64,000 nucleotides of DNA, from positions 7,398,095 through 7,462,094 of the forward strand of contig JAJEKV010000063.1 in NCBI GenBank assembly GCA_021234155.1. The letters run 5' to 3'. The DNA comes from Isoetes taiwanensis (taxonomy: Eukaryota > Streptophyta > Lycopodiopsida > Isoetales > Isoetaceae). Positions 12,862 through 57,885 of the stretch are shown here, one piece after another (position 1 is the stretch's first letter; each line of letters starts with the position of its first letter). The notes under the pieces are model-generated. The model did no database searches and was not told the origin of the DNA. It saw only the letters and a program-made list of their open reading frames with translations. The translations under genes and the position numbers were made by a program.

Positions 12862-13488
12862 TGGCAGTGAATATATTGTAGCTACAAAAACAACCTATGA
12901 GAAGCAGTGGCAGTAGGTTGTAAAGACAAGAACAGTTGAAGATGCAAACGTATACATATAAGTGCTTTATGTGCTTTTAAGTACATATAAGTGCTTTATG
13001 TGCTTTCCTAAAGCAGGTATGTGGGATAAATCGAAAGTAGCAGATTTCCTTAGCCAAGCCTGTGGGATATAGTTCAATAGACAACAGCCTCAGATTGGAA
13101 AGCATGAATGATGCGTTAACCGCCGGACAGTTCTATTATAAGGTGAAGCAGAGCCTTAAAGAATTATTCGGGTCCAAGGATGGTTTGATCCGTCTCATAT
13201 ATGATTGAATGGAGGCAGTCAACGTTGCTACAGCAGCTCAGTCAATCCCTCTGCTACAGTGATCGTTTGCAATATTTTGTATTGGGATTTTAATGATTGA
13301 AGAATTATATCCCAAGTTGACTAGTGCTTACTTGTTGTTTTTTTTAATTGATTTGAGCAAGGAATTATTGACCATAATGTGGCTTCCTTGCTGGTGTGAA
13401 GGATTTGATTGAAATGCTAATGGTGTTGTGAAGCATAAATAAGACATCTTTGCTAGGATAAGTTTGAACGTGTTGTCTAGTTCTAACA
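12862..13488 (+). repeat. Copia LTR piece (3' portion of an LTR), displaced
   Basis: This is nearly identical to the reverse complement of 57210-57809 in the copia 5' LTR: I count about five substitutions plus a 10-bp and a 17-bp indel. It ends in ...TTCTAACA, the LTR terminus, followed by CTAGG (13489-13493). The first 71 bases of the LTR are missing and are found instead at 48177-48252. It abuts the CACTA right end with no spacer. Inferred to be the displaced 3' LTR of the element at 48177-57880. Confidence 0.9.
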
Positions 13489-13493
13489 CTAGG

Positions 13494-14200
13494 CTTAATC
13501 TGAAATTGGGAGTTATGACAATAATAGGAAGTACTAGCATGTCAAGTACAAACATGTTGCTTATTTATATCACAATCAAAAGTTTAACATCTTCCAAATT
13601 GGAAATGAGAATTTATTGTTTCCCAATTTCAGTGAATGGGAGAACCATATATGAGGGTTGTGGCCTTCTGTTTTCAGAAGACTAGGAATTGCATGTATAA
13701 GATAGATCATGTGGTCCAGGGTTTCCCTTAAGAAAAATTCTTAAGTGGTTTACTTTAGAACACCTGGCGAACTTCAATTTTAAAGGTTAGTCAATAGTGG
13801 CGATTTTTTTATTTTTTTTTGGGAAGTTTTGACATAGCGTTGAAGACGAATTTTTGAACAATGACATTATAGAAAGAAATGAAAAGTACATGCACAATTA
13901 CGTTTTCAACTATTTCTTACTTCAGCTATATGCGTGCTTTGAATTGAACACATTGCATGCAAAAATAATGGCTTACAGTAATGCAATAATTTGAAAAAAA
14001 AAAAGGAATTTTTTTTTTTATATTTTATATTTCAATTAAATGATACCAATTTGTGCCAATTTTTTTTATCATTTTGTGATTGTTGCTAGAAGAGGAAGAG
14101 TTCTTTAGCATGTTTTACAATGATAACACGCAAACTAGGACTAATATGGCAGAGTTGGAAACTAATAATAACATATTTGGTAGAAAATGTTACAACATTT
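13494..14200. other. AT-rich, no feature recognised
   Basis: A 73-codon plus frame ends at 13685 but has no recognised motif and overlaps the LTR. The rest is A/T-rich with poly(T) and poly(A) runs near 13810 and 13995. Confidence 0.4.
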
Positions 14201-14224
14201 TAATTTAGAGTGCAATCTGCATTT

Positions 14225-15900
14225 CTTTGCATTTGGCATGAGTACAGCTTCAACTGCTTGTCCGATTGAAAAAACCCACTTTTCACATATATCTAACATG
14301 TAGGGCTATCTGCAAAAGAAGAGAATATAATAAATTGTGAAGAGAAAATGTGTTTCATGTAGGTGCATAATTACCAGAATGTCTTTTATTGCCAATGCCC
14401 TTCATGCATCAGTTAAAGCAAGGAGTCCAGTTGTGTCTATTGTTATCACCGCTGCATCAAATATATGCAAGAGCATAAAATATTTAAGGGCATATCAGAG
14501 CAGATTTTAATCTTAGTTCAGAAAAAAGAGCAGATTTTAAACTTTTATCTTGATTACAGAAGGGTTTATATACTAAATATAATATATCTAATCATACTTA
14601 AATTCCTCTCTCTTATATAATTATGCATTGTAGAAGATTATAGCTGCATCAACACATATTATGAGAACGTCTTTTATCCTATCTACATCCAGATATTGTA
14701 TGGTGCTCCTAAAGCAATGTTCCTGGTAACTACCCTAGTACTAAAATCTGCGGCCCAACCATGGTTGGATCATAGTTGTATTCTATCACACAAGTATATC
14801 TAAAATTGAGTATTATGTACTATTCACATCAATTTCTGGTCCAATAGGTATAGAGATGAAGAGGACTCCTAAAAATGCTCCACGAATTGGCAGGAAACCA
14901 ATTTCGTCTACTTCCCATATGATCAAAGCTTCAATTGATTCAATAAGACAATGACTACACAGAAAATGATTGTGAAAAGGATGGCATTTGGGGTGAAATG
15001 GAAGAGAGGCATAAGCTGTAGGAGAGTCATCATGATCATCATTGCTAGTAGAATGTTAGAGAATGCGGTCATGCAATCTGCACTAAAGTCAGTGCTTGGG
15101 AATAAATCAAGCACATCAATTTTAGCTCATAAGTTATGTAATTCAGACATTTTGTTACCTATAGTGGCATAGTGAGATTCATGATGCCGACACAACATCT
15201 CTTTGTTGCTATCAGCATCGTAACCATTCAGAAGGAAATGTCCGTACTGCAATCTCTTCCTACATTTACTTACCTGTCATGATAAAAAACCTTAAACGTG
15301 AGCATGAGTTTGTACACACAGACATGTAGGGATTACCATAAGAGATACCATTGTAGACACCAAACCAATCTTGATGCTTTTCAAAAAGTATTCACCAAGG
15401 AAGAATCCTTTATGTGAACATATCGGATTAATCCCTTTTTGCATATGCCCTATCCTACAGTGTAACTTTCTTAACAAAATACGAAAAGGAAGACCAGACA
15501 GGGTTTGTTCTGCTTACGCTTCCAAGACCATATTTGTTGTCCTATGTTAATCAGACAAGGCAAGAGGAGTGAAAAGGCCTCCTCATGCTCCTCTGGTAGA
15601 AACTTTGTGTGGCAATACGTTTGTGGCCCAACTGGAGCTGGAAAAAAAACATGAAAAGCTTTAGAAGAGAGAACTTATCTAAGGTTAGCACAATGCTATT
15701 ACTTCCAGAACACACCATATAACGGATCAAATTAAAAAACTCTTGAAGCAGTAAAACAATTCTGATAATATGTTCTCCCATGCAACTTGAAAAATAGACG
15801 CCTGGCATTTTTGGTGTGCAATCTCCAGTTAAGAAGAAGGGAATATTAAAAACAGGAGACACGAAAAGAAAAAATAGAAAAAGCCATACTTAAAGCAACA
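14225..15900 (-). pseudogene. Sulfate transporter (SULTR family) pseudogene
   Basis: Minus-strand pieces appear in the gene order of plant H+/sulfate symporters. KGINPI and GEYFLKSIKIGLVSTMVSL lie near 15330-15440. NGYDADSNKEML lies near 15170-15250; the family has NYQ-DGNKEM. CMTAFSNILLAMMIMMTLL and FTPNAILF lie near 14950-15100, and EVDEIGFLPIRGAFLGVLF near 14830-14940. A piece like VLG.-PGT lies near 14700, a STAS-domain piece IDTTGLLALTDA near 14390-14450, and KWVFSIGQAVEAVLMPN near 14230-14310. Spacing suggests an intron-containing gene rather than a processed copy. Frame changes and stops separate the pieces, and the STAS part contains an in-frame stop. The N-terminal half is not recognisable. 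The assignment relies on family motifs from memory. Confidence 0.75.
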
Positions 15901-16199
15901 ACTTGTCTTTTTCGAACTCTTAGGTAGCAGTGGCTACTGGTGGTAAGAGGCGAATCCGGCTTGAATATGGAGATCTATTATCGAGATTTCGGCGAATAAT
16001 TGAAATTCCATAATCATTTTCAAGGCGACCTCAACTGGGATGGGAACCTAAACCAACGAAACAAGAGCGAAAATAAAAAATTGAATTGAATATGGAACCT
16101 AGTCGAGATTCATATCCATTTTTCTTTAAACCCTTAAATAAGACCCTGATGTGGTCAGATCTACCATGTTATATGCTTCAGCATTGTGCTATAAAGCAT

Positions 16200-17350
16200 G
16201 CATTGCATTGCATCTCGTTGTGATTCTGAAGCTCCTGCTAGCATTTTGGACGAGCTTGACTTTAAGGAACTCAAACCATCAGAATCAGATGATAAAGAAG
16301 AAAGTGTAGAATCCACAAAAGAAGTAGAAAAAAAGAAGCAAGGTCAAAAATGATAAAAAGAAGGTGGCAATTAAGAAAAGATCTGCAGGAGAAACCAGCT
16401 CCAGCACTTCTTTGTTCAATGATCCACCAAGCAAAGACTTCCAGCCAGTCAAATTGGTAAAGAAAAGACTCACAAGAAGTGCTACAAAGAATAATGCTAC
16501 AAAGCCAATGAACAAAGGTGCTTATCAGTTTTTTTTTTTCAATTATTCCTTGCAGATCCAGTTGATGTAGAAAAGGTAAGTCAAATGAAGTTTTCACACT
16601 TATCTCGTGAAGGAAGGCCTCAGATAGCCATAAATCAGAAGATAATTAATTTAACATTGAGATTTAATGCACATTTGTTTACTTAAGATTTTTTTTACTG
16701 TAGACAACACTAATATTAACAAAAGTATAGTTGATGAACCTTCTCAAAGTGAAGAAGTTCTTGAACAAGAGGCTGATGTGGTTGTAGACAACATTGTCCA
16801 GTACTTTTTGCATAAGAAAATCTATCATCAAAGATGAAACGTAAGCAATATTCTAGCATAGGGTTCACTGATATGTTTATAACTTATAGCAGTTCTTTGT
16901 GTTGTGGAAAAAAAATCAAATGAATCTATTGAGGAATTAGAAAAGAGTAGCATGATAAAAAACGCTCCATTTAACAATGGAAAGTAAGTTTTGCGTATCT
17001 CTTACTACTCAAAGTTGTAACATGACAATTTGCACAAAGCCGAATGACAAAGTTAGCTTCTTTTCTATGAACACTCCACGAGAAAAAGGTAAGGAGTTTT
17101 ACAGCATATGTTTGACTTGTAGCCTATGCAGATCCTCAAGTTCCAATTGCAGTGGCTAAGCTTAATCAAATTACAACTCCCACAAGCACATATGAGTGTT
17201 AACTTGCATAAATTGCTTTCACTGGCTTGCTTGGACAGTAGTGCTTTCACCAGCACATCTACTACTTTCTCCAACATCGAGGCAAGTGCTATTGTTTTCA
17301 CAAAACCTAGATAGTCCTCTGGAGGATGATGTTACCATGGAAAAGTGGTT
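16200..17350 (+). pseudogene. Unrecognised Lys/Ser/Glu-rich multi-exon gene remnant
   Basis: Plus-strand coding-like stretches are separated by intron-like AT-rich gaps: SDSEAPASILDELDF and SDDKEESVESTKEVEKKK near 16215-16340, KKRSAGETSSSTSLFNDPPS and VKKRLTRSATKNN near 16370-16520, an acidic piece DEPSQSEEVLEQEADVVVD near 16735-16790, and a final piece EDDVTMEKWFEKKF ending near 17370. There is no domain I can name. It may be the disordered N-terminal part of the gene remnant at 17890-18860. Confidence 0.4.
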
Positions 17351-18860: not shown

Positions 18861-19019
18861 AAAAAATAGATATAGGTTTGCTGAAATACTGCTTTTTCTT
18901 TTTTTATTGGATGACATCGAAATAGTCTTTCTTAGATAGGTTTTTCTGGGAAATTAAAGTTCTTCTATCCAAATTAATTGCTTTGCATAGGCCCTTCTAT
19001 TTGTGTCAACATTAACAGA

Positions 19020-19520: not shown

Positions 19521-19616
19521 ATTAGAAACTAAGATTATAAACATCACATAAAATCTTTATCCAAACAAGCAAACAACCATTAAATAAAGTCCTCTATGAA
19601 ATAAGCATAAGTGACA

Positions 19617-20946: not shown

Positions 20947-21113
20947 ATTATCTATATTCAATGTTAAAATCTAACCATTTTTGAAAGACAAGCAAAATAA
21001 TTTTATGCCTTGTGACAGAAAGTTCTCAAATTCCCACCTTTCAAATGCCAAACAAAAATTCAAAATGACAGAGTCCAATTTTTTAATCAAAAAATATAGA
21101 ACAAAGGCACATT

Positions 21114-21514: not shown

Positions 21515-26300
<4,786 letters not shown>

Positions 26301-33664: not shown

Positions 33665-36600
33665 TTAAAGTGATCCCTGCCCATTTCTGATGACGTGCCT
33701 AGGTTTGCTATCAATTCCCAATGCTTTCTCCCCATTTACTTCCAGATCATGCCTGCATAATTCAACTTTTGTGATCCAAATATTCTTTGAAATCTTAATT
33801 CCATTCATTAGTACGACAGTGGAACTCACTGGAAAACAAAATCTGGGATAGTCAGTTGTTCTCTTGGTACATATCTGAATAGGTCAAGCAATCTTTCAAC
33901 ATACACCACTTGCTTCCAGACCTGCCAAAATCATGATAAGCAATGATTAGCTTTCCATATTTTATATGATGGCTACAGAGTTAAAATACCTCTTGATCCA
34001 CTAATAACTGTAAAGCGAGTATAGTAGTTTTGAGCCCAAAAGTTGGATGCAGCACATAAATTGCCTGTGCAAAACAGTTTAATGCGCAACTAATTATAAA
34101 CCTGATAAATTAACAAAAAGGGAAATAATACCACAAAACTGTGCGGCAAGATCCAACATTTCAAACTGCTTATAATTCATGAAATAAGAAAGCTAAACCT
34201 TTATATCAAGGATTGAAAAAACCATTAGTGTGTCCTGCTTCTCTATTAGGTAAGATACTTATTTTACATATTACTATGGTCCCTCAGATGCAATATAAGC
34301 GGCTGATCTATGATGAAATCAGACATTTTATGCTGCTCCTTTTGTACCCGCCCTTTGGTCATTAGGTGCCTTGTTCCATTCAACCCAACGACTGCCACAA
34401 TATTTCTCATCCTGCTCCCAATTAACAGTTGACAATTTTCCCTCTCTATTTCTGGGCCTTTCCGCCTTTATTCATGTGCTCTTTCAATTGCAAGTAAATG
34501 ACCACCACATGCAAGATCAGGCCCCATGAATATCAATAAAACAGAGCCAAAATATACATACATGCAAATTGCGCCTATGCTTTCTTCCAAGAATCTGTTG
34601 CATTCTTTTCATCCAACCTAGATCAGGTGCACTACACATTCATAAATAGATTATAAGTACTGTTCTCTTCATTGTCAACTGTCAGCATATGCAATTTCTT
34701 ATTCCTTTTTTGCTTACATCTGAAGAGCAGCGGCAGAATGGAAGTAAACAATTGAGTATGGTCTTTGAATTATAGGTTCGAACTCCTGAACATCAGTAAT
34801 TTTCACAGTTAAAGCACTTCATCTGGAACCTTTGCTGCTTACTAGAAGGGCTCCCAAAATGGCACACCTTTACAATATATAAAACAAATCGTTCCAGATC
34901 AAGGCAGCGAAGAAGAAAATGAGCGCCTACAATTACCAATACTGGTCGACCATCAGCATCTACACCTCCTCGGTATCTGCAAAATGAATTATATTGCATC
35001 AATCTATCCAGCTCAACGTAAAATGAAAAGTAACAACACATAACAGACAACATGGGCACTTACATAATCTTCATTTCTGCAACCTCAGTAAGATTGACAA
35101 CATTTGCTCTCGCTAGGTATCTTGCATGAAGGGAGTCTTCTTCGACTGGGGACAATTGAGGTCCACCAAGCCCAGTAAATCCAATCCATTTACTGAAATT
35201 CCAACCTGCTTGGAGCTGAGATGCTTTTTCCCACTGTTCCTGCCGCCTCAGATCTGGATCCTTTGCCATTGACATGAATACTGGATCAACGAGTGCATCT
35301 AAAGAATCCTTCCTGTAGAAAGAGCAAGAGTTCAGGACAATACACATGCATGTAAGTTATTTGCTGTAGACCACTTAACCTTTTCATTAGTGCAGATTGA
35401 TGATTTATTAAAGTATCGTCAGTTATTGCCTCTGGATACTTCCCAGCTGGAAGGGCAGAGATCCTTATTTTGCGCTCTGTAAGAGTAGTTTCTCCATTCT
35501 CATCTCCAACATCAGCCGGTAATTTCATTGATGCAAGTTCTTCCTCATTTTCATCTCTTGGAAAATATAGAGGCAGCAATCTGTAAAATCCTAAGAAGAT
35601 GCTACATTTAGATTCATATCACATGGTTTAGTGCATGAAAAGAATTCGAAACATATTTCATCTTACAAAACCTTCTGTATATTTCTATATCAGTTGCTGC
35701 AGAGAGACAAAAAACAACTGCTGTAATTTTGTCCTTGTGTTTCTCCAGGAATCGTCTCACAGTCCCTAATTTATCAGGAATAATTGTAAAGACCATTGAT
35801 GTTATAATTGAAATGCACATGATCATCACATAGAAGATGGCTTCTTAGATGCTTACTGATAGTAACATGGGCAGCAGGCTCCCGCGGGTAACCTTTTACT
35901 TCCGTGTAGATGCACCCCATAGCAATGCTGCTTGCATAGAAAACGCAAAAATTTTCCATATAAATATTATCATATTGATGAGCTGTTAAAAAGATTCAGT
36001 AGAAAGTCTGGCAGACGAATACCTTTCAAGATCATTCTCAATAAGGAGCTCAAGGCATGCACGGTAACAGTGACTAAGTGCATTCTCTGCAGCAGTGTGG
36101 TATTTCAATGCATATCTAGGGCCAACAGTATGGATTACACGTCTGTAAAAGTTTATGCACGTCAGCACATTATGAACATCGAAGGAAAGTACACATTTAC
36201 ACATACCTAGCAGGCAGATCATATGCTCCAGTGATTTTAGCCAAACCAGTGCGACAACCACCCTACAATAGGTATTACACATTTAGAGCTATCTGAGATA
36301 CTGAGAAAATCTGAAACCAACACATACCAAGGTTGCACATTCTTCAGCAAGACCAGTTCCAGCTGCAGCATGCAAACCAGGACTACTGTGCATCTCATCC
36401 AGGCTCTGTTAACCAGAATCATTAGTAACAAGACAGAATATCAAGGTCCAACATGGGCAATTAAGTAGCAGTTAAGAGAATAAAGCAGTTGTGTTTTTCC
36501 ATATACCAGTCAGCATGTCAAGTACCTTAAACTACAGAGCGCGTATACATAAATGTTTAATAGTGGCCCGCCGCATTTCACAGGTCTCAATTTCTACTTC

Positions 36601-37348
36601 GGATCATAATTACCAACTAAAATGCTGTCCATGCAAACTGGGATGACAGGCAGTACATCTCGCACTTCAGGGAACAAACTCAATTGTATGATGTGGATAA
36701 CAAGCCAAGGTCTTTATACTCAACACAAACTTTTCCCTTAAGTGGAACAATGATTGACATGATAAACAAACGTTCAGGTCAACTGAGAGTGTAAATTAAT
36801 CCATGTAGATTGCAATAAGGTGTCCTCTTTTAGCACTTTAGACTATAATGAGCACACATGAGATTGTCCAGAAAAAGGTGACTTCCTTCGGATTTTGGCA
36901 TTATTACTTGGATTGGATCATTCTGCAGTACCAAACATATAATGCCTATACAAAGAAGAAAAGGATATATCTCATTTTCATGAACTGATCCTCTAGGAAC
37001 ATCAGAACCTAAGAAGCTTGAAATTGAAATATGAAGAATATTATAATAAAAACATGCCTCATTGGTGGAGTTGACAACAGCATCCACTTCGAGGTTCCAG
37101 GGAGGACCACGCCATATGTATAACTTCTGATTGACTTCATGATCAACTGAGAATTTCGATGACCTATTACTTCCTCCACCGAATGATGTAAGAGGGTCTA
37201 CAACCCTATCGTTGGAAAATACAGCTGCATCAGACCTGGATACAGAAGAAATGCGTGGATCCGCATCAATCCACCTTGGAACTTGGTCGAGTTTCACAAC
37301 CCCACCAGGGTTGTAGCTCCCACTTCTTGTGTTTACTCGGCTGTACAT
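33665..37348 (-). CDS. GDAP2-like protein: macro domain + CRAL-TRIO (Sec14) domain
   Basis: Fourteen minus-strand exons join in frame to about 553 codons: 37058-37348, 36328-36405, 36207-36262, 36023-36142, 35857-35927, 35672-35765, 35380-35580, 35064-35312, 34868-34976, 34718-34785, 34562-34631, 33990-34064, 33830-33921, 33665-33752. The layout follows the plant 'Appr-1-p processing family' protein (Arabidopsis At1g69340, about 560 aa), from memory. The start matches the family N-terminus (MYSRVNTR...VPRWIDADPRIS). The macro domain has NLEVDAVVNSTNE, HSSPGLHAAAG, RVIHTVGPRYALKYHTAAEN and EPAAHVTI. The CRAL-TRIO part has VLVIVGAHFLLRCLDLERF, YSIVYFHSA, DLGWMKRMQQILGRKH, AIYVLHPTF and VPREQLTIPDF. 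Macro domains bind or hydrolyse ADP-ribose derivatives and CRAL-TRIO binds lipids; its substrate is unknown. All phases agree and there is no stop, so it looks functional. Intron 1 starts with GC (GCATGT) rather than GT; other introns are GT-AG. Confidence 0.95.
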
Positions 37349-38555
37349 TTTATCAATAATCAAGACTTCATCTCAGCATTTACAACTTGCATCAGCAAAA
37401 ACGCCATTGCAATTCAAGCCATAAATCTGAATCCATGGAACCCATCTCAAAGGATTGTTAGAATTTTTTGCAAATCAAGTCACTCATCGCGCAAGAAGCC
37501 CAACTCGATTTACAACCTAAATGCCACAATTCCACATTGGCGAAGAAGACAAATCCGACACAGTAAATAGGGCCCAACAAAGCGTGATCTAGGAGAGCAT
37601 CAGTCCAGTATTATTCTAAATCTAAAGGCGCCGGCTAGGGCAAGGTTTTACAAGAATGAATATGTAGTGTTTGTTCTCTTGCGTGTGGTTAACTTGGTTG
37701 ATTTTGCTGCTCTGCTTCCTTCAAATGTCCTGGTCCCCACATTATGGGAATGGTAGAAATACGTGTAGGAGGAAATACGCTTTAGAAGTCAAAGGTATTT
37801 GGTATTTAAAAAATGTGTTTCATATGCACATTACTTAGGCACTCACGCCTAAAACTTGTCCACAAAACTGTCATGAAGAGTTTAAATACCCCACAATCTT
37901 CTAGGACAATAACTTATTTCACTTTGTTATTTTATTAGATGAAGTGAATTTCAAGCAAAACATGGATTTTGGAGCCATGTTGTCCTTGTACATAGATGAT
38001 GTGCAAATCATAAATGCATTTGTAGGAAAGTCATTCAATAAAAAAAAATCCATCAATTTCTACAAACAGCAATCCACTGTGTGAAAGAACTCGGTGTGCA
38101 ACCATTGTAACCAAGGCTAAAATGAACTTTATTAGTCTCCAAAACTGAAATGTAGTTAGACCATGCCAATAATCAACAATCTTGCTTTGATGGTCAAATG
38201 TCAATAATCGACGTGTATCAGTCAAATTTCGGGCTAATTACAATGTGAAGATGTCAATATTGATGTCGATTCCATGTCGGACACATATATGTAGTTTGAC
38301 TATCATACGTGGCGTTTTAACCTGGACTCTATGCCAATAGTTGACGTTCTGCTGATGTTGGTTACATACACTGGTATGGTGCTCTGGCATGAGTGTCGCA
38401 TCGTTATCAATGTTGATAATCAACGTTGACTTGGTGGAAAAGAATGTATGATCCTTTAGCTATGGTACAAACTATTTTTTTACATCCATTATGCTTTGAA
38501 TGTGCACCAATGCCCTCAGAAGGTAAGATATTTGAACACCTCTGACGTTTCTTGA
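37349..38555. other. Upstream region of the GDAP2-like gene
   Basis: Presumed 5' UTR and promoter near 37350-37700, GC-richer close to the gene. Around 38160-38420 words like CAATAATCAAC and AATGTTGATAATC recur. No gene recognised. Confidence 0.4.
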
Positions 38556-45929: not shown

Positions 45930-47150
45930 AAACAAAATGGAGAAGGCGCATGAGGTTTTGGCAAGAGATGTGCAAAAAGGGATACAAGCCCCGATATTTT
46001 CACGGCCACCACTTTGATTAGAGGGCTCAAGAACGCCGGGCTAAGTCAGATGAGGCACTATTTAAACCGGATGGGGCCTTGGATCTTCCGGACGAAATGG
46101 TAGAAAGAAAGATTCATCCAGATTTGGATGTGCCTTGTAATTGTGCGAATCAATCGAGATCTAGTAGATTTTTTTGACGAGGGTGCGTAAGCTTTCGACA
46201 ACACATAGATTCTAAGTTTATTGGCGGGATGAAGTCAAGCTTCTTTTGAAAGAGGATTCGGAGGCTACAAATGATCTGCGAGAGGAGATAAAACTTTGAT
46301 CATACCTGAGGAACATCCGAACCATTTCAAGACTTTATAGAATACCGGATATTTAGGCGTGGGTCTCTCTTTGATCTATTTTTGGCATGCTAAGAGGAAA
46401 AGCGTCTTTTGTCATCTTGGTAAGTACACTCAAGTCACCTTATCCATTCCCGCTATAGGCAAAATATCCATTTTAGTTGTTGCGTTTATGCTATATAACT
46501 GGACAAGGTATTCTATGGTAAAGGTTTGCATGTCTTGCAACAATGCCCACTTAAATTACAGGGTAATTATGCGTAGCCCTCAAAGATGATGAACTTGATA
46601 GCTATGTTTCGTAAACATGATGTGATGTATGATTGATTCATTTCCTACAGGATCTTTAGCTAATATCACCGATTCATGTGTTCATGGGGTGCAATAGAGA
46701 TGACTAAAGATGCAAGTCGCGATTCACCGGTATTAATTTCGCATTATAAGAGAGCAGAGGATGTTTTAGATCTTGAAGATTAGATCTTCAAGATTGTTTC
46801 ACTTAATGTGAAATGCAAGATATAGGAGATTCATCTACGAGATGGGCCTTTTGATAGATGAGAATATTCCATCTATAGAATACCTGGCCTTTGATAATGA
46901 GCCATAAGTGGCTGATGACATGTCTTGATCTGATAGACTCATTGGTAATATGTTAGATAGGATGCCTTTCAGCTCGAGAACCATGAGTGAGAATGGTCGC
47001 AAAACCGGTATTTTCACATATAATACTTTGTTAGATGGATTTTTAAGGCTGGTAGAATTGAGAAAGCACATGAGCTATCAAGGAGATGATTTAAGGTCGC
47101 ATTTCGAACATGACCGCTGCGGTCTTGCACGACAGCCATGATGGTCTTGG
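45930..47150 (+). pseudogene. PPR (pentatricopeptide repeat) gene remnant
   Basis: Several plus-strand pieces carry the 35-residue PPR signature in shifting frames: KAHEVLARDVQKG and MCKKGYKP near 45945-45995, LPDEMVERKIHPDL near 46090-46130, then GIFTYNTLLDGF near 47010 and KAGRIEKAHELSRR near 47045-47090. 'FTYNTLLDGF..AGRIEKA.EL' is canonical for organelle-targeted plant PPR proteins. Stops and frame changes are frequent and no start or targeting peptide is visible. Confidence 0.7.
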
Positions 47151-48176
47151 ATTTCATGCAAGCCTGTTTGTGGTAAAGTTTTTACTTCATAGATGTCTTT
47201 TGCTCGTTTTTAATGGCCATTGTGTTGCATTTGCCTAAATATCCTTTTTTCCTTTCAACTGGGTTGTCATATACCGGCACAGATCTTTGGACCTCATTCT
47301 CTCGTTTTCTGAATTCTCAATGTTAATCTTGAATCTTTATGACCGGTACGCAATAATGTCCAAGATGGATGCTTAGTCTATATCCATGTGCTACTTTGTT
47401 TTTAGTATCTTAGCATTGGGTCTGTTGTATGACTCAACCTGCCACAATGGATTCACAAGCTCATCTCATGCAGTGCCAACATTTAAAGAGAGGCCATCCA
47501 TATGTTGGGCAGCAGCTGCTTCCGACTTCGAAAGTGCAGACCCTAATGATGTATTATCATCTAAGAGGCCTAATAGATCCGAAAATGGGCTTTTGGCAGA
47601 GGTACAATAAATAAATCTGCAGCTATTCTTCCAGAATTTGGCTGTGCTCTGTTGGTCATTGTAACGGACTTTCCTGAATGTTATTGAAAATGCTAACAAG
47701 GCAACAGTGCCTCGGGTTCACATTTAAAATCATTTTCCAAGCGCTGGCCGTGAATGAAACTTCATTTTTTGCATACTAGAGGTGGAGTTTAATATTGAGT
47801 TTTGACTTAATATGAATCTTTGGCAGGTTAGAAAGAAAAAGAGAGAGTTGGCATCAATAATGATGAAGATAATAAATGGTTTTTTTTTGGAAAAAACATA
47901 CCGCAAATTCACGTGCCTATGTTTGCTTTATTAGGGCCCGAAGGGCCCAAAATTTTTTTTAATATAACAATCAACATACAAAATACTATAAGGTTTGAGA
48001 CAATGTACTTAATGGTGTTAATTTTGTACATGTATTGTAAATATATTTTTTGAGCTCTCGCTGCCCTACGTAACCCCCCGTGTGAATATGCACCCAAACC
48101 AAAGGGGGTTTAAGGGGGATTTTAATTTAAATGTGTTAAATGCAATGGTTTGTGTTAATAATGTTAATGGTAGTTG
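47151..48176. other. Sequence up to the copia breakpoint
   Basis: An unrecognised plus frame (47386-47610) includes SDFESADPNDVLSSKRPNRS. A short palindrome GGGCCCGAAGGGCCC lies near 47933. At 48168-48177 the minus strand begins CACAACTACC directly next to the LTR remnant. No typical transposon end could be proven. Confidence 0.35.
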
Positions 48177-48252
48177 TGCCACTGCTTCTCATGAATATAA
48201 GATGACAATTTTCTAAATTCCTTATAATATGACATGACTCACATTTTCAACA
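48177..48252 (-). repeat. Copia 3' LTR remnant (first 76 bp)
   Basis: Appears identical to 57805-57880 and follows the polypurine tract. It stops at GCAGTGGCA, where unrelated sequence begins. The rest of this LTR is at 12862-13488. Confidence 0.93.
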
Positions 48253-48275
48253 CTTCCCCTTCATGTCATATCTCC

Positions 48276-48742
48276 TTATGTCATATCTGAATCTGTATGC
48301 ATGATTTGCTTTCTGAGTTCAGTGAACCTTTTCTCTGCCAGAACCTTTGTCAAAATATCTGCTACCTGTTTATCTGTACTAATATAATTCACTTGGATCA
48401 ATCCTTTGCATACTGCATCCCTAATGAAATGCATTTCTAATTCTATATGCTTCGACCTTTCATGCATTTTTGGATTTACGGTCATGGCTATGCGGCTTTG
48501 TAATTGTCACATAGTATCTCACTAGAGTTTGGTCGCTCAATTCCAAGTTCCAAAATTAACCTCCTTTCCCATATTAGTTCTTTTTGCACATAATGTGGGT
48601 GAGGCATACTAAACCTTCCGCGATGAGACAATGCTATAGATGATTGTTTTTGCACTTCCAAGCTACAAGACCTCCTCCAAGCATCATAAGGTATCCTCGA
48701 TGTTGATTTTCTTGCATCTAAATCTCCTGCCGGTCAAGATCA
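48276..48742 (-). pseudogene. Copia RNase H, C-terminal part
   Basis: Downstream of the nested insert: GGGLVAWKCK, ELIWERRLILELGIE, EILCDNYKAA, then NPKMHERSKHIELEMHFIRD, YISTDKQVADILTKVLAEKR and a terminal basic helix. The domain is split by the insert exactly where the family reads 'LTAFCDADWAG', so its first Asp codon region is displaced. Several frame shifts. Confidence 0.85.
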
Positions 48743-48747
48743 CAAAA

Positions 48748-49813
48748 AATGTCGTCGATTCGCGTAGCTTAATCGCATTTCTTTCAAGACGAAGCATGCA
48801 TGCATTGCATCGTCGCATGCATGCATCGCATGCGTTTTGGGCCGTTCTTCCGGGTTAGGCGTTTGCTACTTATTGCGGAATTCTTCATCGACGTTTCATC
48901 GGGCTTCCTCTTCTCAGCATACCTTATTCTCTTTGAATTGTTTCGAGGCGGGGAGGGGCTTCTTCCGCCCGTTTGGCTAATTGGCGTTGCTTTCCTCGCT
49001 GTCCTTTTAGGCCTTTAGCCTTCATCCCGTGACCTTCGCCCTCGATCCTAGTTTGTTAAGGAAGTCCTTTGGTATTCGGGCTCTTTGTTGGTTTCATGCG
49101 GTGCAGTTGCAAGAATGTCGTCGATTCGGCGTAGCGGAATCGCATTCTTGCTCAAGACGAGCATGCATGCATTGCATCGCCGTGATGCATGCATCGTTTT
49201 TTGGGCCATTCTTCCGGTTACGCGTTTGCTACTTATTGCGGAATTCTTCATCGACGTTTCATCGCCTTCCTCTCTCTCTCAGTGATACCTTATTCTCTTT
49301 GAACCCACCCTCCCCCTTTCTTTGTTTATTATATTTTGTACAAGTTCTATTTTTTCATGTTTTTCCACCCGGTGGGTGATGCTTTTTTCCGCCTTGGGTG
49401 ATGCTATTCTCCTGGTATGTTTCTCGTTTATTGTGTTGGTGATGTGTGTACGGGGTTGGTTGAGCGCCATCCGTTTTGACTTCTCCATGCGGGGGTTTTT
49501 TGGAGCGATTCTATGCCTTACGTTTGTCTAAGCCCCTTGCCGAAGGCTTATCACTAGGGTTTTTCCTCGAAAACCCGAAAGGGCGGGTTTTTTAATCCCG
49601 GTGATAAGCTTTCTTCGGCGGTACATCAGCCACTCATCTATTAGCATTGTATTTGTTTTTGGGGTCCAAATGATATAATTGGATTTTCCCTTTTTTTTTC
49701 GTGGGTAGTTCGCATGTGTGCGGCTATCCACTGTCCACCATTGTAGAAATCTGCTGAGATGAATGCGAAGCCTATCTATCGGGCGCTTTGTTGGTTTCAT
49801 GCGAGTCGCAGTG
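48748..49813. mobile_element. GC-rich structured insert of unknown class in the copia RNase H
   Basis: Flanked by CAAAA on both sides (48743-48747 and 49814-49818), a 5-bp target duplication; removing one copy and the insert restores the RNase H reading order. It begins AATGTCGTCGATTCG and ends GCGAGTCGCAGTG. It is a head-to-tail partial dimer: 48748-49113 and 49114-49813 both start AATGTCGTCGATTCG, share GCATGCATGCATTGCATCG and TTGCTACTTATTGCGGAATT, and both end near GTTGGTTTCATGCG. It contains a large hairpin (49539-49619). No ORF resembles a transposition protein. G+C is much higher than in its host. Confidence 0.75.
49539..49619. other. Large nested hairpin
   Basis: GCCGAAGGCTTATCAC (49539-49554) pairs with GTGATAAGC...TTCGGC (49601-49619) with a few unpaired bases. 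The loop folds again: GGGTTTT with AAAACCC (49557-49576), or CCCGAAAGGGCGGG. It may act as a structured RNA or cruciform. Confidence 0.7.
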
Positions 49814-49818
49814 CAAAA

Positions 49819-50776
49819 TGCAGTCAATATTAAGTTTTTTGAATTGTATGCAATTCCCATATCAATAGTGCCTTTTAAATATCTCAGAACACGTTTTGCA
49901 GCAATCCAATGATCCTTCCCTGGATCATTGTTGTATCTACTGAGCATGTTTACACTATGAGCAATATCTGGCCTTGTGCAATTAGCAACATAGGCTAGGC
50001 ATCCTGTTAAAGATCTATATGAAATCTTCTCCATGATTTTCCTTTCTTCATCATTTTTAGGACACATGTCAAGAGAAAGCTTACATCCTGGTGCAGCAGG
50101 AGTTTTACTAATATTGCATTCTTTCATTTTAAATTTTTCAAGCATACCGACCTCTTTTTGAGTTAAAATGATGGTACCTTTATCTCTATTTCTTGACACC
50201 TCAATCCCTAAAAACTTTGTAAGTTCTCCAAGGTCTGACATTTCAAATCTGCTTTTCAACAACCTTTTGCATATCAATAAACATTTTTTTCCTTTTGCCA
50301 CCATAATGTTGTCATCAACATATAAAGCAATAATGCAATCGGCCGCCTTGACATTCAAATTTATACAAATTCCCATCATTCAAAAACTTAACAAATCCTT
50401 GTTCAATAAGATAAGAATCCATGCATTTGTACCATTCTCTAGGAGATTGTCTTAGCCCATAAAGCGCCCTTTTCAATTTCCAAACCTTATCTTCCCTTGC
50501 TCAAATCCCGGTGCTTGTTTCATGAAAATTTCCTCATCTAATTTTGCATTTAAGAAAGTTTTTACATCCATGTGATGCACTTCTAGATTCCATGCATTTG
50601 CCAAAGCCGGTAGCATTCGACATTTGCTCATTTTTACTAAAGGAGAAAAAGTTTCATCAAAATCCTGACCTTTTTTCTGTGAGAACCCCTGTGCAACCAG
50701 CCTGGCTTTGTATTTAGGTGATTTACCATCTGCTCCAGTTTTGATTCTGAAAATCCATTTATTGCCTACTATATTC
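49819..50776 (-). pseudogene. Copia reverse transcriptase
   Basis: Pieces in order: WIFRIKTGADG, YKARLVAQGFSQKKGQDFDE, FSPLVKMSKCRMLPALANAW, LEVHHMDVKTFLNAKLDEEI, then the catalytic IIALYVDDNIMVA (about 50310-50340), SDLGELTKFLGIEV, PAAPGCKLS, YRSLTGCLAYVANCTRPDIA and AKRVLRYLKGTIDMG. The 'F.N..L.E.I.M' and YVDD motifs are typical copia. Several frame shifts; the YVDD is intact. It runs into RNase H, where the 1.07-kb insert sits. Confidence 0.88.
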
Positions 50777-51595
50777 TTACCCTCCGAGTGTTCTTTGTTT
50801 CAAAGGTGTCATCCCGACAAAAGAATCCATTTCCTCTTTCATAGCATTTAGCCACTGCTCTTTGTCATTTGAAACTAGAACATCATCTAAGGTTTTTGGC
50901 ACTTCTGGGTTTAGATGCATCAAAATTTCAAAAATATTGTTTACCTCATGCTCCTGTTCAATTTGCAATCTCTTACTCCTTCCAGCTTCATCACGACCAT
51001 GCATCTCAGTCTCAAATTTCAAGCCTACTTGGAGTTTTTGCACTTCTGTCATTCTTTTCTTTTTTACTTGAGGTTGTTGTTGAACTACAGGTACAGATCT
51101 TTCAACCTGACTTGTATCTATTGATTCTTCTTCACCTTCCCTAAAGAGTCTTCAATTTCTTCCTGAATTTCGTTTGTGTTTCAGCCCGGCCTCAAAGATC
51201 ATCATCCTCAGATCAATCTCATTTACTTTGTTAGTAGATACAGTCTTAGCATTCTGTTGACCAACTTAACATTTTCAAAGCAGCTTTATAGGTCTAGATA
51301 ATTCTTTGTAAACTTGTCCCTCATCAAAGGAAACATCTCGACTAATAATTACCCTTCTTGCTTTAGGATCATATAACCTATAAGCCTTGGACTGATTATC
51401 ATATCCTACTAGATATGTAATTAGAGCCCGATCATCTAATTTTTTTCTGTTTTCCTTTGGTATATGAACAAATGCTAAGCATCCATACACTCTCAAATTT
51501 TCATAATTTGGTTTCCTTCCTGACCAAAGCATATCAGGAATTCCACCATGTGTACTAGCAGATGGCAACATGTTTTGAATAGTCACAGCAGTTTG
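50777..51595 (-). pseudogene. Copia integrase C-terminal part and linker
   Basis: Resumes the interrupted frame with QTAVTIQNMLPSA (51595 downward), then DMLWSGRKPNYENLRVYGC, LITYLVGYDNQSKAYRLYDP and IISRDVSFDE. The linker before RT includes PKTLDDVLVSNDKEQWLNAM and EEMDSF. Frame changes lie near 51275 and 50777. Confidence 0.85.
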
Positions 51596-51775
51596 AACTG
51601 AAGGCATTCACCATTAGACTGAGGGAATTCAAGGGCTGGATTAAAAGATGGGGCAGAGAATGGTTTAAAGAGAAGAGGAAGGAGAAATGTGAGATTTATC
51701 TCAAGATCAGTGAAATAAGAAGGAAACTTTTTCAGGATAAGAACAACAAACTGGCATAGCAAGAAGAGGAAGAGC

Positions 51776-54536
51776 TTGAGAAAAAAGGTAAAGGCAATTG
51801 AAGAGAGAGAGGCTAAATCATTGGCAGTAAGGAGTAGATGTAAATACATCAATGGTATGGATAATGGAGGCTCGGCTTTCTTTTTCAGGACAGCAAAAAG
51901 TAGAATCCTGAATAATGGCATTGTGAAGGTATATGATGACAGTGGGAAAGGCATTGAAGATCAAAAGGAAATAGAAGGTTTTTTCCATGATGAATATAGG
52001 AAGATGTTCCAGAATTACCAAGTACCTGAAAAAGTGATTGATACTTTTTTTCAGAATATTCCTAAGGCTAAGGAGGAGTTAAAAGATGATGAACTTTTAG
52101 CAGTTCCCCAAGAGAAAGAAATTTGGGACACTTTAAAATCTATGGCTGCTGGCAAAAGCCCTGGACCAGATGGATTCCAGCCCGAATTCTATGTGGAATT
52201 TTGGGAAATAATGAAAGAGGATTTGATAACCTTTTTCCAAGGCTCTTGGAAAGCCAATAGCCTCAACCCAGCCATAAATGCTGGACACATTACACTTATT
52301 CCAAAAGTGGATTGCCCAAAAGGGATTGGGGACTGGAGACCGATTTCTTTAACAAACACAAGCTACAAAGTCTTAGCCAAGATATTGGCAAACAGATTAA
52401 AAATGTTTCTGCACTCAACAATTAATCCCTGCCAATCAGCTTTTTTACCTCAGAGGAATATAATGGAAAATTATATTGGAGCTGCTGAAGGTCTGCATTG
52501 GAACAAAAGATCAGGACAAAATTGTATGTTACTCAAGTTGGATTTCAAAAGGGCATATGATACAATAAGTTGGCAGTTCTTAGAGAAAGCTATGACACAT
52601 ATTGGACTTCCAAGCAAGGTCAATCAAAAGGTTTGGAGCTTCAATGTAAATTCAGCATCAGCATTAATTATAAATGGCACACCTACCAAGCTGTTTAAGT
52701 GTCAAAGAGGGGTTAGACAGGGATGCCCATTGGCCCCTTACCTGTTCCTCATTGTGGCTGAGATGGTAACAAGGAAAGCAATACAAATGCAAATTGAGGG
52801 GGAAATAAAAAGCCTTCAGCTACCAGATAATAAAGGTCCCTTTACTATGATGCAATATGCAGACGATACTTTTGTATTTCTGGACAAAGAAGATAAGAGT
52901 TTGGAAAACTTTCTGTCAACTATGGATAAGTTTGGTGATGCTGCAGGAGTCAGACTAAACAAAAACAAGTGTGCCATAATTTATGACTCACAAGATACAA
53001 TGTTACAAGGGATCAAAGTGTTGAGCTCCAATTCTGCCACAAGTATCTTGGGAATTCCTTTGTCAATTAACAGTTCTCTGCAGGGGATATGGGAACCCAT
53101 TGTGACCAGAATAAAGAAGAAGTTGTCCATGTATACCTCCTCATTATCTCTGGCAGGAAGAATTGAAATTGCAAATTCTGTAATAAGTAGCACACATGTG
53201 TACTTTTCGTCTGCTATTGTTGGAGACAAAAACTCTTACAATAAAATAGAGGCAGCAATAAGGAAATTTATATGGCAAGGCTCTCACAAGGTGGCATGGG
53301 CAGACCTAATTAAATCTAAAAAAGATGGAGGTATGGGTTGTAAAGACATGTTCATTCAAGCTCAGGCACTAGCAGCTAAAATGATATGGAAAGCAATGTA
53401 TGTCACAAAGCCATCTCCTGCTTTACAATTGGTGAAATATTGGATTCAGGAATCCTTCCCTGTTGGAAGCCATACTCTAAAACATCAACTTCCAGACTCG
53501 GCTTTCTTCCAACTGTCCCCTTGCCCAGGTACTTCTAACATTCTCAAAAGGATGCTGCAGGCTTGGAACAATGCAGCTTTGTGCTATAGACCTCCTAATA
53601 TTGATGCTACATGTAAAGAGGTGAATTTCTTTTGGCATCCTGATTTTGCACCAGAAAATATAGGGTGTCTTGCTTTGAAACACCCACAGAAGTATATGCA
53701 GTGGTATAAGAATGGAATTAAAACATTTGAGGATCTCAGAATACAGGATAGATGGATGTCTTGGGAGGAATTTGCAGAGAGGACAAAAGCATCTGAACTA
53801 GACAAAGAAATTTTCAGGGTTGTTATGAGCAGGATAGAAGGATATGATGAGTTTAGTAACAACTCAAGTACATGGAATTTGAACAATAAGGAATGGTATT
53901 CAGTCAGAGAAATTTACAAAGCTCTGGTGCCAAATAAACCATCCAAGGCAGGTCCACTATGGCAGTGTAATGAAGACAAACTTGCAGATATATGTGCTCA
54001 AGGATGGTCAAGTTATGTAGCAAATAAAATCAAAGCTTTTAGGTGGCTGGCAGTACACCAGAGTTTGCAAACAAATCAAAAAAGAGCAAAATTTGACAGT
54101 GTCTTTTGGGGTTTATGCCCCCTCGGTGTGGTCATTTGAAACTTCAAATCATGTCTTCACATGTTCATGGTTAACTGAATTTTGGAGTTGGTCTGCCCAG
54201 ATTAATAAAGGAGCCCCTACTGATCAAAATTTGCTTAATTTCTGGGATACCAATGATAGAATGGAAAGTACCACAAGAATTTTGAGCTGCTGGGTTGTTT
54301 GGCTACACAGAAACAGGGTTGTGATTAATAATCAAACTCCTTCCATCATCTGGATTAAGAGAGCTTTTGTAGACATTATCCAAATAACTGCCATTGCTCA
54401 CAGGATGCTCAAAGGAAAGAAATATGATTCAGCTTGGAACTCTCTAGGGAAATTCTATGGCTTATATGATTTCTTTCTAACCAATCTAACAATTTCAGAT
54501 GATGTACTGCACAGATGCACAGAGGAGACTCAATAG
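51776..54536 (+). pseudogene. L1-type LINE reverse transcriptase and zinc finger
   Basis: A long frame (51776-54139) holds the RT. Motifs in order: NGGSAFFFRTAKSR, AAGKSPGPDGFQPEFYVEFW, GHITLIPKVDCPKGIGDWRP, CQSAFLPQRNIMENYIGAAE, LLKLDFKRAYDTISW, RGVRQGCPLAPYLFLIVAEM and the active site MQYADDTFVFL (about 52850). Later come SILGIPLSI, SLAGRIEIANSV and VAWADLIKSKKDGGMGCKD. The zf-RVT finger is split: the frame shifts by one base near 54126 and the rest (HVFTCSW..., LHRNRV) continues to 54536. An upstream stop (51756-51758) and a shift near 51780 lie in the linker. RT catalytic residues are intact; it resembles plant L1. Confidence 0.92.
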
Positions 54537-54547
54537 AGTTGGGAGTA

Positions 54548-54885
54548 TGGATCGAGCAATGGGAGTGGCTGAAGATTCAGAGGATGAAGATACCCAATTG
54601 TCCCAAGATGAACTGGAGGAAAGGGTGATCCAGCTCAAGCAGGCGGTTATACATGCCAAGGCCATTAAGAAAGTACTGAAACGGTCTGAAGTGTGGAGGT
54701 ATAACAGTCTTAAGCCCTATTTCACCTCTCTGTACCATAAGTGGCAGCAGAAAAGAGAGGCCAACGTGTTGCTGCTCCTTGATTTTACAAATTTCCAGAT
54801 TTGTGTACTGGACACTCTTCTTACAATCCTTGGAAACTGGAGAGTTGATGACATTACAATAGAGGATTTACTAAATGAAGACTGA
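54548..54885 (+). CDS. Small downstream ORF of the LINE, function unknown
   Basis: A 112-codon frame starts at the ATG at 54548 (MDRAMGVAEDSEDEDTQLS), 11 bases after the RT frame stops, and is uninterrupted. It has an acidic N-terminus, then long charged helices (LEERVIQLKQAVIHAKAIKK, RYNSLKPYFTSLYHKWQQKR) and a hydrophobic C-terminal stretch. I recognise no domain. It is intact although the RT carries lesions. It could be a genuine third ORF or chance. Confidence 0.45.
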
Positions 54886-55140
54886 AGTGGGAAACAGAAC
54901 CAAAGGAAACTTTCAGATGCAAGAATGCTACATTATCTTGGTTAAACAGTTTATTAGTATTGCTGTATTACTATGGTACATGGATCCTTTCTATAAGGAC
55001 CAGGTAACACATTTTGGCATCATGTATCCTTTGCATGAGGATCATGATTTTTGGCTGAATAGTATCATGCAATTATTAGGTATGTCTGTAATGATATACC
55101 TCCTGATGTATCTTAGATGAAATATAAAAACAACCTTGCC

Positions 55141-55142
<2 letters not shown>

Positions 55143-55186
<44 letters not shown>
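55143..55186 (+). repeat. Poly(A) tail of the L1 LINE, 44 A
   Basis: Uninterrupted A run at the LINE 3' end, immediately followed by the second AACTG. Confidence 0.97.
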
Positions 55187-55188
<2 letters not shown>

Positions 55189-55968
55189 GCCTCTTCCCAT
55201 AAGAAATTTGGTAATCCTGCTGATTTTAACATGCTCCTAACAGCATTTAAAATTGTTCTGTTCTTCCTTTCAGCTACACCATTCTGTTGTGGGGAATGAC
55301 TACAAGTTAGTTGCCTTTTAATGCCTTTATTCTTGCAAAACCTCTTAAATTCTCCTGATAGGAACTCACCTCCTCTGTCAGACCTCAAACATTTGATCCT
55401 TCTTCCTGTTTCAGTCTCCATCTCATTAACAAATTGTTTAAACTTTTCAAAAGCTGCATCTTTAGTTTTAATGCAATACACTTTAGTTTTTCTACTGAAA
55501 TCATCTATTAGAGTCATAAAGTATCTCTTCCCACTCAGACTAACAACATTAAGTGGTCCACACAAATCCGTATGTACCAAATCCAAAATACCCTTTGCTC
55601 TTGCACCTTTTTTCTTAAAAGGTAATTTGTTGTGTTTGCCAAGCATACATCCCATGCATACTTGTTTTTCATTGAGATGTGCTGATATTAAGGAATCCTT
55701 CCTTGTTTAATACCTCAATTGTAGCAGGATTAACATGACATAATCTTTCATGCCAATTTTTCAGAGATGGATAAGTCAGCAAATTGATACTGGACATCAA
55801 ATGTTGTCTGTTTAATCCAAATAAATTTCCAACTCTTTTTCCCACAAACATTTTTTTATTACCAAGAAAAATATTACAATGAAGTTTTTCAAACACCACT
55901 TTATAGCCAAGATCAACTAACTGGCATATTGAAATAAGATTTCTTATCAATCCTGGTATGCACAACAC
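55187..55968 (-). pseudogene. Copia integrase, first part (interrupted by LINE)
   Basis: GAG-pre-integrase zinc-binding region with WHERLCHVNPATI (55669-55968) and downstream CMGCMLGKH. The core has HTDLCGPL (first Asp), CLRSDRGGEF (second Asp) and NGVAERKNRTI (catalytic Glu), ending at LPNFLWEEAV where the LINE poly(A) begins. The DDE residues are intact. One frame break lies between the two pieces (about 55660). Confidence 0.9.
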
Positions 55969-56101
55969 ATTTTTTAGCTTTTTTACATTTTTTGCCTTCT
56001 AGGTCAAACAACTCTTAACTCCAAAGACTCTCAATTGTCTTAGTTCCCCATTTCCAAACTGTACATGTCCTCCTTCTTTTCTCTCGACATTTTTTAGCAT
56101 T

Positions 56102-57175
56102 TTACGAGCTTCCTGTCACGGATCTCTCAGCTCCTGAATCTAAGATAAGAGCATCAGTGTCAAATTTTGTATTAATCTTAGAACAAGCCTTAGACATATT
56201 TACCTCAATGTCTTCATCCTGCTCATCTTCCTCTTGGCTTGTTTCTCGAGCAATATTTAGGCTAAGCTTAGCCTTGGATCCTTTACCTTCAAATTTCTTC
56301 CCTTTCCCTCTTTTTGGACTTGAGCAGTTGGTTGCTATGTGACCTTTACCCTCACAATTATAACAAACAACTTCCTTTCCAAGTTTAGGGCAATTTATTT
56401 TGAGGTGACCATAAGCATCACAGTTAAAGCATGGGCCAATTTGTTTTTTACTAAACACCTTCTTGCCTTTTTTCTGTTTGACAAACATGTTTGGTCTGCT
56501 CAAATTCTGTCCTGATCATTCTAATTGCATGTTCTTTTGATTTAGCCACATTTCTTAACAAAGTAGCTAACTGTGCATTATGGGAGACTGCTCTAGAAAT
56601 AGCTAGAAGTTGATAGTCCTCATTTAACACAACTCCTGCTCCCTCTAAGTCAGCAATTATTGATTCAAATTTTTCCAGAAATTCAGTAATATTGTCTTTC
56701 TCATACAATTTTAATTTTTCAACCTGCTTTTTCCAATACATCTATTTGAGAGGAAGACTTTTGCTCATAATTATCTAACATAAATTTCCACATTTAGTAG
56801 GGATTTACCTCGAAGTTTTAGCTTGATAGCTGTCCCCATCTTTTGGCATATTATGGATTGAGCTTCCATTATTCTTGCCTTCTCATCCACGCTAGCCACT
56901 AAAGTGACTCTTCTTGCTGCATTAGTTCCAGAGTTAGTTCCACCTTCACCACTTGCAGCTGTTCTAGCTTCACCACCTGCAACAGAGGCTGAAGTACTTG
57001 ATTCTTCTCCTCCAGATACCACGACTGCTGTATTAACCACATTAGGATCAATCAAGTACCATAATTTTTCAAATTCTAACACCTCCTGAATGCCTTGCTT
57101 CCAGATCTGGAAACCTGTTTCCCCTTTGAAGACCTCTATGGAGTTTAAGAGATTAGCTCCAAATCGAGTAGACAT
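56102..57175 (-). pseudogene. Copia Gag and protease start
   Basis: Starts MSTRFGANLLNSIEVFKGET (57175) just inside the primer-binding site. The capsid part has WYLIDP, then EKLKLYEKDNITEFLEKFE (56451-56741). The nucleocapsid has two CCHC zinc knuckles, CFNCDAYGHLKINC and CYNCEGKGHIATNC, against the single knuckle usual in copia. The aspartic protease motif appears as LILDSGAERSVTG near 56110-56130. Frame breaks lie near 56770 and 56500. Confidence 0.88.
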
Positions 57176-57209
57176 CTTGCTTTCCTGGATTTATTGGCTC
57201 TGATACCAC

Positions 57210-57880
57210 TGTTAGAACTAGACAACACGTTCAAACTTATCCTAGCAAAGATGTCTTATTTATGCTTCACAACACCATTATTCACACCAGCAAGGAAGCC
57301 ACATTATGGTCAATAATTCCTTGCTCAAATCAATTAAAAAAAACAACAAGTAAGCACTAGTCAACTTGGGATATAATTCTTCAATCATTAAAATCCCAAT
57401 ACAAAATATTGCAAACGATCACTGTAGCAGAGGGATTGACTGAGTTGCTGTAGCAACGTTGACTGCCTCCATTCAATCATATATGAGACGGATCAAACCA
57501 TCCTTGGACCCGAATAATTCTTTAAGGCTCTGCTTCACCTTATAATAGAACTGTCCGGCGGTTAAGGCATCATTCATGCTTTCCAATCTGAGGCTGTTGT
57601 CTATTGAACTATATCCCACAGGCTTGGCTAACGAAATCTGCTACTTTCAATTTATCCCACATACCTGCTTTAGGAAAGCACATAAAGCACTTAAAAGCAC
57701 ATAAAGCACTTATATGTATACGTTTGCATCTTCAACTGTTCTTGTTTTTACAACCTACTGCCACTGCTTCTCATAGGTTGTTTTTGTAGCTACAATATAT
57801 TCACTGCCACTGCTTCTCATGAATATAAGATGACAATTTTCTAAATTCCTTATAATATGACATGACTCACATTTTCAACA
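57210..57880 (-). repeat. Copia 5' LTR, 671 bp
   Basis: Minus strand begins TGTTGAAAATG and ends TTCTAACA, the TG...CA limits of an LTR, one base from the primer-binding site. It contains GCTTTATGTGCTTT twice; the displaced copy has an extra 10 bp there. It is flanked outside by CTAGG (minus reading, 57881-57885). Confidence 0.95.
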
Positions 57881-57885
57881 CCTAG

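Follow-up and report, generated by a model that had tools for sequence, protein, structure and literature searches.

How the 3′ long terminal repeat (LTR) of one retrotransposon comes to lie in two pieces, 35 kb apart and on opposite strands, is the question raised by a stretch of 64,000 nucleotides from Isoetes taiwanensis (hereafter the window; contig JAJEKV010000063.1, G000:C1071:7398095-7462094, from a genome of 1.66 Gb in 1110 contigs). The element in question is a copia retrotransposon, and the initial annotation had proposed that the segment 12862-48177 was either inverted after a recent copia insertion or misjoined in the assembly. Older repeats nested around the copia were used as rulers to recover the previous order of the locus. 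The locus carries a large turned block that includes a GDAP2-like gene; one break falls, to the base, on the 3′ end of a DNA transposon of the CACTA type, and the triplet TGG is found at both breaks. The inversion was probably made by the cut-and-paste enzyme of that transposon and is probably not an assembly error.

Both candidate pieces of the 3′ LTR were aligned to the 671-bp 5′ LTR of the copia. The stretch 48177-48252 (minus strand) matches LTR positions 1-76 at 100%, and the stretch 12861-13488 (plus strand) matches positions 71-671, where a 10-bp gap, a 17-bp gap and 5 mismatches among 600 aligned sites (K = 0.0084) were counted. This divergence corresponds to about 0.3 to 0.6 million years if the substitution rate is taken as 1.3e-8 or 7e-9. 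The bases of the 17-bp gap are present in all six other LTR copies aligned, so the 5′ LTR has lost them. The displaced piece and the window 5′ LTR are sisters (support 95/87) in a tree of 28 rows, which comprises these two sequences and 26 of the other genomic copies listed; a pair from contig C1044 adjoins them. The displaced piece and the window 5′ LTR also have two substitutions in common; none of the 26 other LTRs contains the strings carrying these, while the unchanged forms occur in 18 and 16 of the 26, the remaining LTRs varying elsewhere in the string. Because the displaced piece and the 5′ LTR are sisters in the tree and carry these two private substitutions, we assign both parts of the 3′ LTR to a single copia element. 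A second, C1044-like element was considered as the source of the displaced piece, since the search score favoured C1044; this preference arose from the gaps, and the tree position led to its rejection. The element otherwise has the hallmarks of a copia: two LTRs of the form TG...CA, here with the 3′ LTR in two pieces, an integrase ahead of the reverse transcriptase, and a 5-bp target duplication. Nested in its internal region on the opposite strand is a long interspersed nuclear element (LINE; 51719-54536, plus strand) with an 806-amino-acid open frame containing RVT_1. The LTR itself contains, at 57750-57835, two potential hairpins with a common 16-base loop, TGAGAAGCAGTGGCAG, and different stems, and the LTR break falls in the first loop. 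Breakage at a cruciform formed by these hairpins was considered and rejected: 19 of 200 shuffled sequences folded equally well (z = -1.54), and the site is better accounted for by the CACTA terminus.

The sequence outside the copia preserves a record of the locus before its insertion. CTAGG stands outside both outer LTR ends, at 13489-13493 (plus) and 57885-57881 (minus reading), and the outer flanks beyond it are two parts of an older interspersed repeat. Thirteen copies of this host repeat, those carrying its first part (to query position 228) among the matches listed, were all inspected; in 11 of the 13, a query made of both outer flanks with one CTAGG between them aligns across the junction, so that the flanks are contiguous there. 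One of these copies (L021) carries the identical CTAGG letters, and the remaining two of the 13 (L022 and L023) align to the right part only. In the window the same flanks are presently 44 kb apart. Since 11 of the 13 copies have them side by side, the order changed after the copia inserted, and chance is a very unlikely explanation for the same reason. This comparison indicates that the copia inserted into an older interspersed repeat whose two sides were later separated and turned. The first 1000 bases to the right of the displaced LTR have one place at 100%, with the rest at no more than 88%, and thus no alternative arrangement is seen in the assembly among the matches listed. These results bear out much of the initial annotation, namely that one copia copy has its 3′ LTR divided between 48177-48252 and 12862-13488, that two indels explain a length difference of 27 bp, and that CTAGG is one target duplication. 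Its prediction that sequence right of 57885 should be continuous with sequence right of 13493 where the copia is lacking is borne out at the empty host-repeat sites elsewhere in the same genome.

At the right break, the previous order can be read from a second repeat. When the 500 bp below 48178 (minus reading) were used as a query, they matched a high-copy repeat, here called E. An older copy of E had been split by the CACTA; its left half, P, is at 2061-2158 and its right half, Q, at 47977-48178. The halves adjoin each other, wholly or partly, in 38 of 39 fetched records, a subset of the repeat E places listed. Counted as distinct places these are 35 of 36, since L060, L062 and L057 duplicate L052, L053 and L054. 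The exception is L089, where P aligns to position 88 against a cut-off of 90 and the spacing by coordinates is unchanged. An unbroken P-Q-R series, where R is the sequence that follows Q, is present in L052 (1208-3304), L053 and L055. The parts of L052 lie in the window at 2061-2160 (plus, P), 47977-48178 (plus, Q) and 47981-46189 (minus, R). Comparing these orientations with the order in L052 establishes that R is turned and Q is not. The rearrangement is thus more than a simple inversion: 12862-47976 is turned, and the 202-bp Q, unturned, sits past the flipped block. The large turned segment with the GDAP2-like gene that the initial annotation described is therefore supported, but its right limit is 47976 and not 48177, and Q was relocated. 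Simple inversion through exchange at a 6-bp microhomology was also considered and set aside, because repeat E shows Q in its old orientation. P ends in TTA and Q starts with TA, which places the CACTA insertion in E at TTA, with one base since lost from the right-hand triplet. Repeat E is palindromic, with 434 bp between CACAACTACC ends in the copies displayed, 126-bp arms and often an extra inverted outer arm; several copies among L052-L090 stop at variable points just beyond CACAACTACC.

The left break lies at the end of the CACTA. The terminal inverted repeats at 2159 and 12861, which start with CACTA, are alike at 17 of the first 20 bases. Transposase_21 (tnp2, PF02992) was detected in the open reading frames (ORFs) 8799-9398 (E 4.3e-31) and 9648-10394 (E 2.1e-7), and DUF4216 in the ORF 11327-12223. 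Position 12861 is the exact 3′ terminus of the element and coincides with the rearrangement break. At least 40 places, including the window, match all or most of the 3′ 500 bp (best 40 of 256 candidates scored), and 19 relatives were kept as loci; the family ends at the corresponding point with TAGTG in 18 of the 19 and AAGTG in L108, and the sequence beyond differs among copies. The relative at C1021:262105-272706 is a CACTA of 10,602 bp, 101 bp shorter than the window copy, with an AAA target duplication and 98.8% identity over the last 2 kb. It matches both ends at 100%, over 600 and 500 bp, so the window CACTA is without sign of being a chimera. From such similarity among copies, the family probably moved recently. 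A search of the window for a further CACTA terminus, tolerating 3 mismatches in 17, and for a second strong match to the last 2 kb of the element found neither.

The target triplets tie this terminus to the LTR break. In all three relatives whose left end was found, the CACTA is flanked by a 3-bp target duplication (AAA, AAA and CTA). The flanking triplets of the window copy are unequal, TTA preceding the element and TGG following it, and later insertion of the CACTA at an existing junction is rejected because they differ. The right-hand TGG corresponds to LTR positions 72-74, and its partner lies at the other break, on the second LTR piece. The two LTR pieces overlap by TGGCA when counted from 12862 and by the six bases GTGGCA when counted from 12861. 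The 5-bp overlap that the initial annotation reported is present, but not as a single unit: it is best read as a TGG duplication plus two chance matches, because TGG is on both LTR pieces and CA fits the sequence beyond equally well. Positions of all features are given in the table.

Table. Features of the rearranged locus, in window coordinates
Feature	Position	Strand	Evidence
P, left half of repeat E, ending TTA (2156-2158), the CACTA target triplet	2061-2158	+	97% to L052 1208-1307
CACTA (En/Spm) DNA transposon, 10,703 bp	2159-12861	+	Terminal repeats CACTACAACAGGATAGG / reverse complement CACTACAAGAGGATAGG; transposase domains; ends of relatives
Flipped block, 35,115 bp	12862-47976	-	P/Q/R paralogs; copia flanks
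First TGG of the 3-bp duplication in the broken LTR, junction J1	12862-12864	+	Sequence
Displaced part of copia 3′ LTR (LTR positions 72-671)	12862-13488	+	5′ LTR alignment; LTR tree
Copia target duplication CTAGG, 3′ side	13489-13493	+	Sequence; empty sites
Right copia flank, older interspersed repeat	13494-13716	+	Paralog alignment
GDAP2-like gene in the flipped block (approximate limits)	34793-37372	-	Macro PF01661; weak CRAL_TRIO_2
R, follows Q in other copies; inverted here relative to P and Q	46189-47976	-	L052 1501-3304 vs 47981-46189, 94%
Q, right half of repeat E, moved, in original orientation; starts with TA, remainder of the TTA duplication, junction J3	47977-48178	+	100% to L052 1304-1505
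Copia 3′ LTR stub (LTR positions 1-76; 48177-48178 could equally be the end of Q)	48177-48252	-	5′ LTR alignment
Second TGG of the same duplication, junction J2	48179-48181	-	Sequence
Interior of the copia, with RVT_2 (ORF 49528-50379) and rve (ORF 55113-55706)	48253-57209	-	Domain search
Complete copia 5′ LTR	57210-57880	-	Alignment
Copia target duplication CTAGG, 5′ side	57881-57885	-	Sequence; empty sites
Left copia flank, other half of the older interspersed repeat	57886-58880	-	Paralog alignment

That the CACTA took part in the rearrangement in some way is highly probable. We favour, as a reasonably probable account, a single rearrangement initiated by the transposase and begun at the CACTA 3′ end, a form of "alternative" transposition. 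If the paralogs reflect the ancestral order at this locus, the plus strand would have started as P - TTA - CACTA - TTA - Q - R ... copia right flank - complete 3′ LTR - copia. The transposase would have cut at the CACTA 3′ terminus (TAGTG|TTA-Q) and between Q and R (GTTGTG|TGTTG), with a third cut, at TGG in the LTR, staggered by 3 bp. Each side of the LTR cut would then have received one end beside a TGG, the CACTA 3′ end on one side and the right-hand end of Q on the other, while the donor ends, (T)TA-Q and R, would have been sealed together with a footprint of one lost base. The predicted product is P, TTA, CACTA, TGG, LTR part, right flank ... R turned, TA, Q, CCA, LTR stub, copia, where the CCA beside Q is TGG on the other strand. 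In essence, three cuts and three joins account for all junctions, with 3 bases gained and 1 lost. Two features of alternative transposition are found at this locus, a break exactly at a transposon terminus (12861) and a duplication of superfamily length, TGG at 12862-12864 and 48181-48179. A break at the exact terminus together with a duplicated target triplet would cast the element as an active maker of the inversion, and not a bystander or a recombination template.

Several observations weigh against this account, most of them at the second end. No second bona fide transposon end was found at the other break, where CACAACTACC is not CACTA-like past CAC; its resemblance to the CACTA terminal repeat is no better than that of 33% of the CAC sites in the window (6.6% of all sites). 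CACTA subterminal words are not enriched there either, 300 of 1340 tested intervals scoring equally high, and the Q/R boundary is an internal point of repeat E in most fetched copies. The number of duplicated LTR bases could lie anywhere from 3 to 6, the lowest value holding only where Q has lost nothing, and a 2-bp microhomology (CA) allows J2 to be taken as a product of end joining. The triplet-length control is small as well, since the left end was found in 3 of the 12 relatives fetched, one of them distant (69% over 195 bp). Since no such second end was found, the rearrangement works like alternative transposition, and full membership in that class is not claimed. This leaves two options, the use of a cryptic end or a turning of Q in end joining that followed a one-ended attack. 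We suggest tentatively, as possible rather than probable, that the CACTA transposase paired its true 3′ end with a cryptic CAC end at the Q/R boundary, 200 bp off and oriented alike, and placed the two in a single distant target. Such pairing, if true, would yield a balanced 35-kb inversion with a 202-bp piece moved to the far side and one base lost.

Other routes to the same arrangement were also considered. Hybrid element insertion using sister-copy ends, or recombination between two inverted CACTA copies, one in repeat E (TTA) and one in the LTR (TGG), could have produced the inversion and left a CACTA at either breakpoint, both routes being described in PMC2775673; the CACTA at J2 would have been excised later and the adjoining 202-bp Q reversed during repair. 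This would leave the identical exchanged triplets, TTA and TGG, on the remaining CACTA, but it requires an extra excision and a flip of Q that hit the same breakpoint to the base. The search of the window for a second terminus or 2-kb end speaks against it, as does the C1021 relative with its perfect match at both ends, although near-identical copies might mask a chimera, and we regard the two-step route as unlikely. A less simple but possible route has the order mirrored, the CACTA lying first in the LTR and its 5′ end moving into repeat E; it gives nearly the same product but would require TGTTG to act as a second end, and its TTA duplication would be imperfect.

Three double-strand breaks repaired by ordinary end joining would dispense with transposase strand transfer altogether, the CACTA end coming from a failed excision and a 3-base overhang in the LTR being filled in. 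Breakpoints sealed by end joining usually contain small turned fragments, and the possible microhomology at J2 and the lack of a credible transposon end at the Q/R break also fit such repair. It leaves two things to coincidence, however, a CACTA end intact to its last base and an LTR duplication readable as exactly the CACTA length of three, and seems distinctly improbable. The remaining explanation, the misjoin that the initial annotation had kept as its alternative, draws on the numerous copies of both the LTR and repeat E in the genome. Here, the window contains zero N, and the joins share at most 6 bp, far below the overlap used by assemblers. Every junction rebuilds ancestral sequence known from the paralogs, and marks of transposition are present at the junctions. 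A misjoin would have had to rebuild three ancestral junctions by accident and create a CACTA-like duplication as well. With a single 100% place for the flank right of the displaced LTR added to this, a misjoin is very improbable.

The favoured reading, a transposase-initiated event at the CACTA 3′ end, has parallels in several systems, compared here as they are described in excerpts of the published accounts. Alternative transposition of maize Ac/fAc elements (hAT) generates inversions from reversed ends (PMC8225341; PMC3744419). The likeness lies in a large inversion, one break exactly at a transposon end and a duplication of superfamily length at both breaks. In maize, however, the superfamily is hAT, the duplications are 8 bp, bona fide ends lie at both breaks and the inter-element segment is lost, whereas in the window a CACTA is involved, the duplication is read as 3 bp, one end is recognisable, and the segment between the cuts (Q) is retained. 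Were the cryptic-end pairing true, its geometry would differ from both reversed-ends and sister-chromatid alternative transposition as described in those excerpts. The inversion of the Arabidopsis chromosome 4 knob by VANDAL5, a Mutator-like element (MULE), is similar in that one DNA transposon end inserted at a distant gene while the other end stayed in place (Fransz et al., 2016, as described in PMC12312487); it differs in superfamily and in its use of two neighbouring elements. For the Drosophila elements P and Galileo, hybrid element insertion and ectopic recombination have been weighed against each other (PMC2775673). These share with the window exchanged target duplications on transposons at inversion breaks, but have a copy at each break, whereas the window keeps one CACTA only.

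CACTA elements near inversion breaks are already in print (PMC12530302). A 7-Mb sex and colour inversion in cichlids is bounded by CACTA transposons, which the authors suggest may have acted by catalysis or as recombination templates (PMC12530302), and CACTA elements have been reported at rice inversion breakpoints (Zhou et al., 2023, as cited in PMC12530302). The cichlid case resembles the window in having CACTA elements at inversion breaks. It differs in its tandem copies at both ends, and no target duplications are given in the excerpted text; in the window, a single CACTA end stands at the break to the base, and the old and new junctions have been worked out. In the excerpt of a cowpea paper, CACTA is given solely as a share of repeats. 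A CACTA inversion resolved to the exact terminus with a duplicated triplet was not found among the titles, abstract openings and excerpts covered in a search of an open-licence library, which is no proof of absence. Inversions frequently have no assignable mechanism, and what the window adds is a duplicated target triplet at a break that falls exactly on the CACTA terminus. The nested repeats, used as rulers, fix the old junctions to the base, and an inversion with a gene inside can thereby be followed back to one transposon end.

The gene carried by the flipped block has a Macro domain (PF01661) at 35986-36282 (E 9.7e-9) and a weak match to CRAL_TRIO_2 at 34793-35059 (E 0.051), a combination that we take to be GDAP2. 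The same block contains a LINE-type element at 21518-25493, with Exo_endo_phos in the ORF 21858-22376 and RVT_1 in the ORF 23234-24232. This element is bounded by perfect arrays, (CT)73 at 21518-21663 and (TC)121 at 25252-25493, as if it targeted TC repeats.

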